Part shown: positions 11,436 through 62,400 of the stretch, piece by piece
Layout: each line of letters starts with the position of its first letter
Position numbering within the stretch: the stretch's first letter is position 1
NCBI GenBank assembly: GCA_905160935.1
Contig: CAJHZI010000492.1
Coordinates: 997,001-1,061,000, forward strand
Length of the DNA: 64,000 bases
Direction of reading: 5' to 3'
DNA from: Enchytraeus crypticus
Taxonomy: Eukaryota; Annelida; Clitellata; Enchytraeida; Enchytraeidae
Notes under the pieces: model-generated
Databases searched by the model: none
What the model was told of the DNA's origin: nothing
What the model saw: the letters and a program-made list of their open reading frames with translations, nothing else
Position numbers and translations under genes: made by a program

Positions 11436-14400
11436 CTGCTTAAATATACAACAAATGTCAGTACGTGATAGATATCAAACCAATATAAATATATAATAAA
11501 CTATAAATAACAAATTTATATCAGTAATTATGTGTGTCTATATAGAGTACAAACAATTTATTTACAATTTAATACATGATATATATATATATATATATAT
11601 ATATATATATATATATATATATATATATATATATATATGTATGAATATAAATAAATAATAAACTGTAGATAACAAATTTATATCAATAATTGTGTGTGTG
11701 TGTCTGTATAGAGTATACATAATTTATTTAGAATTTAATACATGTCCTGATTTTGCACTGTTTCAATTTCGCTTTCTCTTGTGGTCTCTGTATACTCAGT
11801 CATCATCGTGTGATGCTTTGGCGCCTGTTTGTATGGATTCTACAAGAAACGTCCCTGACATTGCCTTATGGCGAGGAACAGGACGTTAAATTCTTATTGA
11901 TTGATTGATTGATGTCCTGATATTTATGTTCATATACAGATTTATCAGGCTTCTGACCGTGACGTTAAACCCACATCACCAGGTCCCTTGACTTCATCTC
12001 AAGTATAGTCATTAGCTACATGGAAATAGACTATACTACAAGATTCCAAGTTGCCCTCCTCAAATCTACATCGATATCAACAAAATAAGCGCAGATTCCA
12101 AGTAAACGCTCAAGATCATCGGCGAAACAGCATGGATGAGTACGCTGAGGCGACCACCAATTTAGTAATAATAAAAATAATAATAAAGGTTTAACGTCCA
12201 TTTCCTCATCCAGGGATGATGTCAGGAACGTCCCCACAGCACACATCACTACAGATCAATTCACCCAGACCAATCTGCAAAAGAAATGTGCTGATGAGAA
12301 GTAAGGTCCTAAATATATATACAGACGACATAGACATACATATATATAAGTGAGGGTCAATTTTTTAAGATTTTTAAAAATAGAATTATCGAAGTATAAG
12401 ATGCTGACATACCCTCGTTGGGGTCGATGGGTGCGGGGCTGGTGTAGTGGCGGAGGGAAATCATAGTCACTGGGCACACGATGCAGGCTGGGTCGCTTGT
12501 CTGCTTCAAATTAAACAATGACAATAAAATCAAATGCATATAGAATTATATACGAGAGTTAGCATGAAGCGATGCTCATCGACAGTGATGGGAGCTAACT
12601 TAAATCTCTAGCAAAAATGTGTTACCTCATTTTATATTTGAGCTAATTAAACTCAAAATATGAGTCAACGTTTTCTAACTCATTCATTATAATTTAAAAA
12701 TAATATGGAGCAATGTTTTTTAAACATTTTTTTGATATTTTTTAAACACATTTTTTTAAATTTGAAGGTCTTTTATATTTGTTTTTCTAGTAGCTCATCA
12801 AACAGATTAGAATTAAGGTGCAACAATAGTCAACGAAGCAACATCTCTAACATTTATTCTCCATAACGAAATGATCTATGAACGACATATCTTTAGAAGT
12901 TCGCTTCTTAACAAATTTGTTTGCTTAGAATTTATCTCATGGCTATTTCCTTTAAATGAGTCTAATTTCATACTATCTCAACTTCATCAATGCCATCCCT
13001 GCGCAGAAAATGTAAAATGATCTGTTGATCCAGAGTGTTACCTCACATTCCACATCTTATAGCTGTCAGAAAAAGGTGAATTGAGAAAATATCTGAAAGA
13101 GATTTAACCTAAAATATACCTAACCACTGCTGTGCTTAGCAGTGCGGAATTGCTCTGCAGGAAAGCAGCAGAAACTACTGATGTCCCGGACGTCATCCTT
13201 GTATGAGGAAACGGCCGTTAAACCTTTATTATTATCTTACTCATTACTAGATAGTAATAAACCCACTTAATCGCCTCAATTGAAGAAAATACGGCAGGCA
13301 AGCTAGTTGACCATGAGAATTTTGCTATAGAAGAAATAATGGCCTAATGTTCAATTTACAGATTTAAATCAATTTTAAGAGTTTAACTCAATCAGCTAGT
13401 TATTCAAAACTTGAGTTAAATTCACATTTGAACTCAACTCAAATGCTACAAGCTAAAATTTGCATGTATTTTATAACATCAGTAAAAAAAGGAATAAATT
13501 CAGTTAACAAAATTTGTAATAAAAGGAATAAATTCATTTAACAAATTAGCATACTAAAAGGCAAAATTTAAATGTTAGCAAAGCAGATTTACTTTAGCAT
13601 TTTACAAAATGTCTAAGTTACGTAACATTAGCATACTGATTCTAAAAACAGTATTCTATTCAATTATTTGAATAATCATGAAATTCACAGTAAAAGTAGT
13701 AAACATAAATATTAAACCTTTTCCGTCAGATTTTCCGGCATTTGCATAAATAGGTTCAAGATCCGCTGCTGCAGCTAGTGCTGCTGATGATGCAGTAAAA
13801 TCGCGCACAGAGGGGGGCCCGGAAGGTCCGACATTTGGCGGTGAATCATAAGGAACATCGTGCAACTCTGGCAGATACCTGGGTGTGTGCGAGTTATCTG
13901 CCGATATACAACATCATCATCATCATCATCATCATCTTCCCTTAAATCCCAGTTTAACCAGTGTCGGGTACGAATAGACTTTCTTCTATCCATTCGTTTA
14001 AGTTTTGCGGCAATTACTGGAGCCTAGGCGCCCACCAACCGAATGCCCTTTCTGACGTTGGTATGGATCTTAGTGCCTTAGTCGCCTTCTACGACGCGTG
14101 CAGTCACCGGTTGGTCAAATTCTTCACACGATCCGAACACAACAGGAGAAATTTAATAATGATTTCTTATTATCATAAGCACATTTAATCTTAAAAGTCT
14201 TTACTATAAATTTATAGAAAAACAATTTCTTAATTTTTATCTGAAAATTTAATCACAATAGTCCTAATAATAGTGTATAGAAATAAAGACAATTGATTAT
14301 TACTTTCACATGCAAATATAATCTAATCATAATAGACCTTAATAATAATAATATATTCCAACAAAAAAATTTATTGTTTTCACATGCAGATCTAATCATA

Positions 14401-59437: not shown

Positions 59438-62400
59438 CTGCAATTTATAGTTATAATGTTAATGATTAATTGTTTGATTCGTCATGAAATAGTTGATGTA
59501 GTAAAACACATATAGTATACCTACTATATGCGTTATTATTGCTGTGATATTGAGTTGCGTTATATTCAATATATTGTTGTGCGTGAAAAGACAAATGATC
59601 GAGCTGGTAGAAAACTTGTCTGATAACTAAGAGCCACGGGTTTGAACCCAGCCCGATAGTGCAATAGAAATAAGAAATTTTACGTAAAACTTGTACAGTA
59701 TGTAGTTATATAGAACTTTACTTGAGGAATTCCTGGAGATAGTGTAGACTGGCGTATCCGGCGTCCTCTTGTCCCACGGTATCAAATCCTATCACGTGAT
59801 CAGGGTATTTGGAATAGAGACGAGCAACATTTTCCATTTCCAGTCGCCACTGCTCATACGGATTCTGCCGGAAGGAGTAGGAGATCCTCTTGTGTCCTAT
59901 GAAGTCGTTTTTCTTCAAGGTCATGTTCTTTGCCAGTTCAATGGTCATCTCAACATCTATATCGCTGCGGGAAATCAATCAATCAATTCTTGTACAGAGG
60001 TTTAAATTCTTTAAAAGGCCTACAGTTTAAAGCCTAGTATTTTATTTTCATTAACTTTCCTTTTAAGTTTAAAGTCAAGTATGGCATTAAAACGCATTGA
60101 CGGGGAAAACACGGGATTTTAAACCTGCGCACCTACTCGTCCACAGGTGGACAAGTAACCAACACGCTACCATCTCAGTTAGATATATAATTGGTTGATA
60201 CATCGCTAACTGAACTTTTTTCTTTTACGTTCCTTTTGTATGCACAAATTTCTTATCCTCAAGAATCTTGATTCATTTCGGTCTGTGTTTTTATGAAACT
60301 CTCTTTAAATCTACTATCTAAAGAAAACAACAACAAAATTTCCCCTTAAAAAATTCCTGGATCTGCCACTGAGAGGCAGCGAAGCAGCTCCTTTTCACAG
60401 CTAGGTTGTTCATAAGACTTCTCTTCAAGACTGCTTGAAATACTCGAGCTGCTGTCACAAAGATTAAGCTAACTGTTAGTTAACAAAGCTTTAACTTAAT
60501 TGAAAGTTTTAAAGCATGTGTCAAAAAGAGATAATCAGATTAGCAATTGCATATAAAAGGGACATCTAGGCCTACTGTCAATGGAAATTCTATTAATTAA
60601 ACCAATATCAAAGTTCAGGTGTTTTCCTCCGCGTGTCATTGATTTTCTGCCATACGGTATTTTCTATCTTATTATAAGTACACAATCCGGTTGAATGGCC
60701 AGACTAAACCCAAACCGAAGATTATCAGATTCAGAGAGGCTATGTATAGATTGCGCAATGAGAGATTCAAACAATTTAGATAATGCATTAGAAATTGCAA
60801 TTGCTCTGTAATTATTAAGGTCAGCTAAATCGCCAGATTTATTCTTAACTAGAGGTACAGATTGCATAACTGAATTAAGCAAATGACTATGTTTTAGAAA
60901 CAAATTATACAAGTTTAAATGAACGTAGAGACTAGGACACGCGAATGAAATTGCCTCCATGGAAATGCCATCTGGTCCAGGAGATTTTCCATGCTTTTGC
61001 AATCTACAAATATCTATAATGTTACTAACAGAAATGACAAAATCATTCTTAGGAGAACAGTTAGGGCGATCCAAAAATGCATTTTTATCAGCATTATATT
61101 CATTGATTCCTACTGCGCAATCATTATAAAGATGCTCAACATGAGTACGCCAACGTTCCTTTGGATCATGACAGGAAATGCCTGTATAAAGCTGCAACAG
61201 CTTACAGAAGCTTTATCGTAGATCTGTGCTGAATAACTGAATAATTAGGAATTGATGCTCTCTTTCTCTCTCTCTCTCTCTCTCTCTCTCTCTCTCTCTC
61301 TTTCTCTCTCTCTCACTCTCTCTCTCTCGCTATATATATATATATATCTTTCTTTCTCTCTCTCTCGCTCTCTCTCTTTCTCTCTCTCGCTCTCTCTTTC
61401 TTTCTCTCTCTCTCTCTATCTCTCTTTCTCTCTCTCTCTCGCTCTCTCTCTCTCTCTCTCTCTCTCTCTCTCGCTCTCTCTATCTCTCTCTCTCCCTACC
61501 ACACTCTCTAAACTATCTATTCAGATGTCACACAATTAATTTAAAATAATAAAAAATTACTTCAGAGCTCATGATCCATAGTAAGTGTGGAACTGAACGA
61601 TTTGAAATACCAGCAACACACTGTAGCTACCAGCTACACATTCGATCTACCAACGATACATATACATTTTCACTTCACAGAGTTTCCAAGCTCCCACTTC
61701 TAAATGGGCGATAACTCAGTATTTTAACCAGGCTGATTTTAGAAGTAATTTTAAACATTTTCAAACCTTGAATCCTGCCAGCTGGACCCCAGGAAGACTT
61801 TTCCATACGTGTCCTTGTACTTGGGATCGGTGCTCATGATGTAGAGACGTTCCATGGGTCCAAAGTTCTTACGGGACTCGAAGTACGTCACTCCCTCTTC
61901 GTACGAGTGGTCGTACATGGCCTGGTGAGAAAATCAATGGGAGAAATAACAACAAGATTAGCATTTGAAAATATAAGACTATTACAGTAAATTTAAACTA
62001 ATTAAGCCTAATTAATTATGCCCAATTAAGCGCAATATTACATGATAAGTATACCTAATCTGTGTGTTAGTGTGAGGGTAATAATCGTGGAATAGAGAGC
62101 TTTCCTCTATGACGTAGGTTCTAAGGTTTGATGTTAGCTATGACGCATGTTTGACGTCAGAAAACATGATGTTTGACGCATGTTGTTAAGGCCTGTTTGT
62201 CTCTCTGTCTCAGCTGATGCTAAGGCTTGTCTACAGCAATCCTTTCAAGAGATATCTTCCTGGATGTCTGCCAATTTCTTGGCACTCAATCCATCCAAGA
62301 CTGAGTTCGTGCTATTTGGAACACCTCAGCAAATTTCAAAACTGAACGAGGTGTCCCTGGCTCTCTCTTCTGGTGTTTCAGTAACACCGGTTTCTTCTGT

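Follow-up and report, generated by a model that had tools for sequence, protein, structure and literature searches.

The window considered here is a 64,000-nucleotide stretch of the genome of Enchytraeus crypticus (524 Mb in 802 contigs; the window lies on contig C399), and the subject is the tetranucleotide repeat GATT, runs of which stand directly ahead of 3' splice sites (acceptors) in its genes. At least four intron-bearing genes are contained in the window, namely CBL and an ADA2-like gene on the minus strand, and a C2H2 zinc-finger gene and a membrane-protein gene on the plus strand. The zinc-finger gene is referred to as HINFP, a putative name taken over from the earlier note on this DNA. 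Pfam matches among the proteins of the window include Cbl_N2, Cbl_N3, A_deaminase and TIG, besides ADA2/ADGF matches. In the membrane-protein region, no Pfam match was obtained for any of three open frames, and comparison of two of these with solved structures returned no or chance-level matches, one of the two overlapping a repeat.

All GATT strings that the earlier note had quoted from acceptors of these genes were found in the window where it had placed them. In the ADA2/ADGF gene, a (GATT)3 run (GATTGATTGATTTCCCGCAG, TCCCGCAG) at 59965..59984 on the minus strand leads into an exon that starts at 59964. The phase fits at this acceptor, and the ADGF homology begins two residues beyond the join, leaving the join itself uncovered, and a tRNA-like stretch recognised by eye stops about 100 bp upstream of the run and is unconnected with it. 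In HINFP, a GATT-rich degenerate array at 31971..32284 on the plus strand, partly built of a repeat of about 115 bp, ends with GATTGATTGAATAAAG (32269-32284) in the ATAAAG acceptor of a zinc-finger exon that begins at 32285. By reading, this exon join yields a C-x2-C-x12-H-x3-H finger in fitting phase, and Pfam finger models hit the joined sequence, with the models that span the join being weak and under their cut-offs. The acceptors of CBL exons 7 and 8 and of membrane-protein exons 3 and 4 are candidates, placed by phase or open frame alone. For CBL exon 7, GATTGATTGATTCAG, which is (GATT)3 joined straight to CAG, occupies 14909..14923 on the minus strand with the exon from 14908, in a phase that suits the LPR|gt donor near 15918. 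For CBL exon 8, a family F copy with a (GAT)n tail (13909..14055, minus strand; GAT run at 13936-13912) stands just before the AG at 13899-13898, the (GAT)n tail being the one that the earlier note had reported there. For membrane-protein exon 3, the 3' end of an R-family copy (43392..43591, plus strand) is followed by a GATT-rich tract at 43600..43845 ending in GATTGATTGATCAG (43832-43845), with the exon from 43846. The family A copy and (TTA)n run described ahead of exon 4 of the same gene are likewise present, at 44590..44815 on the plus strand, and continue through a T-rich stretch to TGTAG. Antisense GATT runs occur in or beside the minus-strand genes (from 11899 and 58209 on the plus strand) and in the region of a plus-strand gene (50576-50541 on the minus strand), and none of these is located at any identifiable acceptor.

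The reading in the earlier note called for a strand-biased enrichment of GATT runs before acceptors throughout the genome, and a sampled version of the count it had suggested supports such an enrichment. Exons were located by genome searches with three protein families, in which the matches listed numbered 81 for Myosin_head, 12 for Sugar_tr and 137 for Pkinase (230 in total). The DNA was read around 112 of these (72 loci and 40 further loci), the other 118 not being read as anchors of their own. Acceptors were placed by eye from protein homology, giving 77, or 76 once the near-identical paralogue L088 was removed. The remaining 35 of the 112 anchored loci were dropped due to a long open frame without a nearby acceptor or an unclear acceptor; they include L108 and L111, with GATT-bearing arrays at the start of the match, and L058 and L089, with arrays in which no GATT run was seen, and adding these four back would change the counts little. 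A run was defined as at least 8 nt of GATT in any phase within positions -50 to -1 of the exon, and the control consisted of 945 windows of 50 nt taken 350 to 1,400 nt upstream at 45 loci, which are not fully independent, since they partly overlap.

A sense GATT run was found in 12 of the 76 acceptors as compared to 24 of the 945 interior windows (Fisher 3.6e-6), and an antisense run in none of the 76 as compared to 16 of 945. With runs of at least 12 nt the figures are 8 of 76 and 6 of 945, so that the enrichment over the intron interior is about 6-fold at 8 nt and 17-fold at 12 nt. About one-sixth of the sampled introns thus end in a sense-strand GATT run just ahead of the exon, and the pattern is genuine and by no means confined to the window; nine additional acceptors within the fetched loci carried GATT in two cases. 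Comparable enrichment at the 76 acceptors was not seen for any other repeat with a unit of 1-5 bases. The second most enriched was (GTT)n, with 3 of 76 as compared to 2 of 945, ATTT was not significantly enriched (4 of 76 and 19 of 945, p 0.085), and a CT repeat and a homopolymer of 8 were each present in 0 of 76. Directly ahead of the acceptor, (GTT)n was seen in L027, L038 and L084, and in shorter form in L093. A donor-side effect was considered and dropped, as only one sense and two antisense GATT runs were present there among 72 loci, some of which have no donor at that place. Over the whole genome, a CAG within the 15 nt after (GATT)3 was counted 20,400 times and an AGC 10,608 times. The resulting CAG/AGC ratio of 1.92 compares with background values of 1.13 (the window) and 1.21 (intron interiors). 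AGC, an anagram of CAG, served as the control, because GAC after GATT and CAG after AATC are each a single substitution away from the repeat and were set aside for this use.

Comparison of paralogous genes indicates how such runs arrive. At the NTFEQLC-type myosin acceptor GATT is present in one of seven genes (L017), at the SGESG acceptor in two of four (present in L021 and L028, absent from L015 and L030), at the VKN acceptor in L031 and not in L032, and at the TYSG/TYTG-type acceptor in none of nine, with L035 among these placed by profile position. Homologous acceptors therefore differ in GATT, and the run has been added to an existing, old intron.

What the run may offer to such an intron is suggested by ordinary acceptors. 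In the 61 acceptors without GATT or arrays, the motif TTGAY, counted by its A lying 1-50 nt before the exon, occurs 25 times in the five nearest 10-nt bins against a background of 2.0 per bin, and beyond 50 nt it is at or under background. The control motif TTGAR was not enriched in the same acceptors (10 in five bins, with 1.85 per bin as background). The top hexamers near acceptors are CGTAGC followed by CTTGAC, and the acceptor zone is T-rich. YTNAY is the general animal branch pattern, which TTGAY fits, and TTGAY would accordingly be read as the probable branch site of this genome, judging by motif and position. A sense GATT run spells TTGAT every 4 bases and an antisense run contains none. 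The proposal of the earlier note that the GATT unit holds a branch-like motif is hence strengthened, and a GATT run may multiply a branch-site motif native to this genome, given the excess of TTGAY in the last 50 nt before the exon where GATT is absent.

Some of the runs are part of tandem arrays that cross the splice border. The unit of such an array comprises the intron end with GATT, the AG and the first 20-60 nt of the exon, and the last unit runs into the real exon, leaving the preceding ones as decoy acceptors. Decoy acceptor minisatellites of this type extend, relative to the exon start, from -308 to 0 in L031, -183 to 0 in L064, -284 to 0 in L077 and -124 to 0 in L078. Two introns of L028 carry, by eye, about six and about a dozen units, and L027 has the same array type with GTT instead of GATT. 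By score, 8 of the 76 acceptors have a direct copy of the exon start in the 400 nt upstream of it and none has an antisense copy, and control pairs from different protein families reached this score in 1 of 2,962. Each of the eight copies starts with the first base of the exon, and an AG precedes six of them. Twenty decoy acceptors in eight introns were examined, and reading on from 19 of them hits a stop codon in frame ahead of the true exon, the exception being in L027; on calculation, TGA appears in all three frames once a GATT run reaches about 14 nt. The sequence ahead of GATT in the arrays read varies by gene, and the spacers of the units are unrelated between genes. In the similar kinase genes L077 and L078 the recognisable decoys number 4 and 2, which suggests turnover of the arrays. 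Arrays in which the exon end and donor region are repeated into the intron without GATT runs were scored in 4 of 72 loci (L016, L029, L037 and L057), and because these exist, border duplication is general in the genome and GATT is only a part of it. Two side observations belong to these loci. At about -970 in L028, the repeated start of the myosin P-loop exon includes a donor-like GGTAAGA, and the array units therefore resemble tiny cryptic exons. The kinase exons of L069 and L070 (on contigs C168 and C546) are identical over the stretch shown, and the two flanks of L070 both contain matches to the ends of its exon, which suggests recent or tandem gene copies.

Duplications of the border kind are also present in the window, at the acceptors of CBL exons 6 and 7 and at one HINFP donor. 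In CBL, a second copy of GATTGATTGATTCAG followed by the exon-like GCGCAAGC (15020..15034, minus strand) is a decoy, because continued reading from it meets TGA. The GATT run of this decoy is the tail of a family D copy (15023..15168, minus strand), which is flanked by an 80-bp segment (14933..15012, minus strand) and its duplicate at 15197-15276, with 87.5% identity. At 16107..16437 on the minus strand, the exon 6 acceptor AATATCTTAYACTGTTGTAG|GAACC with the exon start has repeated copies upstream; the real AG was taken as 16152-16151 and the exon boundary was set by reading. In HINFP (31013..31423, plus strand), 68 bp of exon end and donor (31013-31080) are duplicated at 31356-31423 with 89.7% identity and a LINE-like (long interspersed element) fragment between, and either a long target duplication or a tandem duplication is possible. 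Two minisatellites with AG-containing units of about 40 and 64 bp lie near HINFP exons as well, at 30627-30868 and 33285-33879.

The earlier note had taken the runs for tails of retroelements, and the families concerned, D and F, defined by self-comparison of the window, do end in the repeats it had named, GATT in all four D copies and GAT in all nine F copies read, two of the F tails being short or degenerate. Besides the copy at the CBL decoy, family D copies with GATT tails lie on the plus strand at 2832..2917, at 11775..11913, antisense to CBL, and at 58151..58228. Short interspersed elements (SINEs) with LINE-like 3' ends and simple-repeat tails are well known, and family D, a putative SINE, is similar in ending with CGTTAAATTCTTATTGATTGATT and a GATT tail, of which the genome holds 3,296 exact 3' ends and none of the reversed pattern. 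These tails are not the runs seen at the sampled GATT acceptors. In the 20 nt after them CAG occurs in 629 cases and AGC in 537, a ratio of 1.17 that lies within the background of 1.13-1.21, and the tails thus are not enriched before AG. At the cut-off used, a D body was detected within 160 nt at none of the 12 GATT acceptors and an F body at one, and the 3' body of D directly upstream of a GATT run does occur at the CBL decoy at 15034. The R family, which we take to be RTE-like, carries sequence other than GATT after the 3' end in all four other 3'-end copies read. From the D ratio, the lack of D bodies and the R copies without GATT, it follows that most of the sampled acceptor runs do not stem from D tails, and the GATT runs at acceptors for the most part lack the appearance of remnant mobile-element tails. 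At the same time, 3' ends of families A, F or R lie within 160 nt of acceptors in sense at 10 of 76 and in antisense at 2 of 76, and in mid-intron the bias is reversed, with 6:15 for all loci (Fisher 0.0039) or 4:13 minus continuations (Fisher 0.0025). Two of the ten sense loci (L060 and L091) are weak, with similar matches to A and to D; a stricter set gives 8:2 as compared to 2:9 (p = 0.009; Fisher range 0.0025-0.0089 by row choice). Thus, the use of retroelement tails as acceptor context holds for A, F and R and is not supported for D; a retroelement origin is mostly unsupported for GATT and supported for some other tails, and the earlier interpretation was half right, with an acceptor and branch context being plausible.

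Several explanations can be set against these data. That the runs are tails of retroelements inserted in sense, D for GATT and F for GAT, and recruited as acceptor context, agrees with the existence of thousands of D 3' ends and with the strand bias of A, F and R near acceptors; it is doubtful for the sampled runs, in view of the background CAG ratio of D tails, the near absence of D and F bodies at GATT acceptors and, in the arrays read, pre-GATT sequences that change from one gene to the next, which truncated copies of a single element would not do. Somewhat less doubtful, although still unlikely, is a passive tolerance in which GATT is simply a very common microsatellite whose T-richness is harmless in sense near acceptors, without any role at the branch site. 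The genome indeed contains (GATT)5 21,240 times, overlapping starts counted, and its acceptor zone is T-rich, but tolerance cannot alone yield the 6-fold and 17-fold enrichment over the interior, and the T-rich repeats ATTT, CT and T8 are not significantly enriched. Polypyrimidine richness alone was also considered and dropped.

Two further explanations address the arrays and the introns themselves. If the machinery of retroelements chose intron-exon borders for nicking, it would leave insertions consisting of the tail alone, flanked by target duplications, 20-80 bp long, in which the AG and exon start are included; this accords with copies that begin at the first exon nucleotide, with the AG preceding six of eight, and with the CBL duplication that flanks a D copy. 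This is improbable, given donor-side arrays without GATT that make border duplication a general process, unrelated unit spacers between genes and no preference of D tails for AG. Least probable by far is that introns ending in GATT are new introns, gained from an introner-like element. The repeated units do contain a 3' splice site, but in paralogous genes the equivalent position also has an intron, one that lacks GATT, by which the idea is contradicted for the myosin positions and was rejected there, and no common element body was seen.

The explanation preferred here, to which a probability of roughly 0.5 is assigned, is that GATT runs are simple-repeat tracts established at pre-existing 3' splice sites by virtue of their branch-like TTGAT units, some of them joining duplications of the border. 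In such a programme, the sense strand would be favoured since the TTGAT of each unit matches the (Y)TTGAY found near ordinary acceptors. The run would then act as a string of redundant branch sites, which slippage, its likely origin, could lengthen or shorten harmlessly, and an antisense run (AATC), A-rich and devoid of branch sites, would be removed by selection. A subset of runs would join tandem duplications crossing the intron-exon border, and the extra copies of GATT run, AG and exon start would stay in the intron, skipped for the last copy and kept inert by the TGA that GATT brings into the reading frame. Retroelement tails (those of A, F and R; GAT and TTA tails) would be one source of acceptor context and not the main source of GATT.

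A number of points weigh against this explanation. The strand difference alone, compared with the interior ratio of 24:16, has p = 0.010, and the 76 acceptors come from three protein families, some share one gene and all were placed by eye. GATT acceptors account for only three of the eight exon-start duplications. Repeat 3' ends near acceptors could partly account for the TTGAY enrichment, and decayed D bodies may escape the cut-off, a D-like match being present in L060, which has no GATT. The genome-wide pattern counts contain overlapping starts and array copies, and both GAC after GATT (32,353; 17,656 and 14,697) and CAG after antisense AATC (29,952; 16,250 and 13,702) exceed the 20,400 cases of CAG after sense GATT. 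Slippage alone, moreover, leaves the choice of GATT over other repeats bearing TTGAY unexplained.

Related phenomena have been described elsewhere. A tandem duplication described in a potato RNA-dependent RNA polymerase gene (RdRp) spans the 3' border of an intron, taking in the AG, the exon start and, ahead of them, a pyrimidine tract and a putative branch site, with splicing kept (PMC4974935). The likeness is that the duplicated segment crosses the intron 3' border; there, one duplication gave a new intron with a new donor, whereas here multi-copy arrays lengthen an old intron, and do so in several genes. Introners create introns with recruited splice sites, which may derive from the duplicated target (PMC9860276). 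They share with the present case a repeated sequence associated with the 3' splice site, and differ in that here no shared element body was seen, no new intron is formed and paralogues have homologous introns free of the repeat. Mammalian transposable elements exhibit a strong orientation bias near exons, human SINEs being sense-biased at 20-200 bp, and are scarcer near acceptors than near donors (PMC3088655). Orientation bias near splice sites is thus common to both, but in this genome sense 3' ends and GATT runs gather at acceptors. Among the top-ranked titles and abstract openings of the open-licence literature, no account of GATT repeats at acceptors or of multi-copy acceptor arrays was found.

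Taken as a whole, the observations raise the possibility, put forward tentatively, of a class of 3' splice sites made from reiterated branch sites, in which sense-only (GATT)n at about one-sixth to one-tenth of sampled acceptors would evolve as satellites, part of them copying the acceptor and exon start into decoy arrays silenced by stops that GATT itself carries. Branch sites are usually hard to see, and in this worm they may take the form of repeats that can be counted. Since paralogous acceptors that have a run stand beside others that lack one, it could be asked directly how many branch sites an intron tolerates, how the last of many near-identical acceptors gets chosen and how satellites persist on splice borders without breaking the genes.

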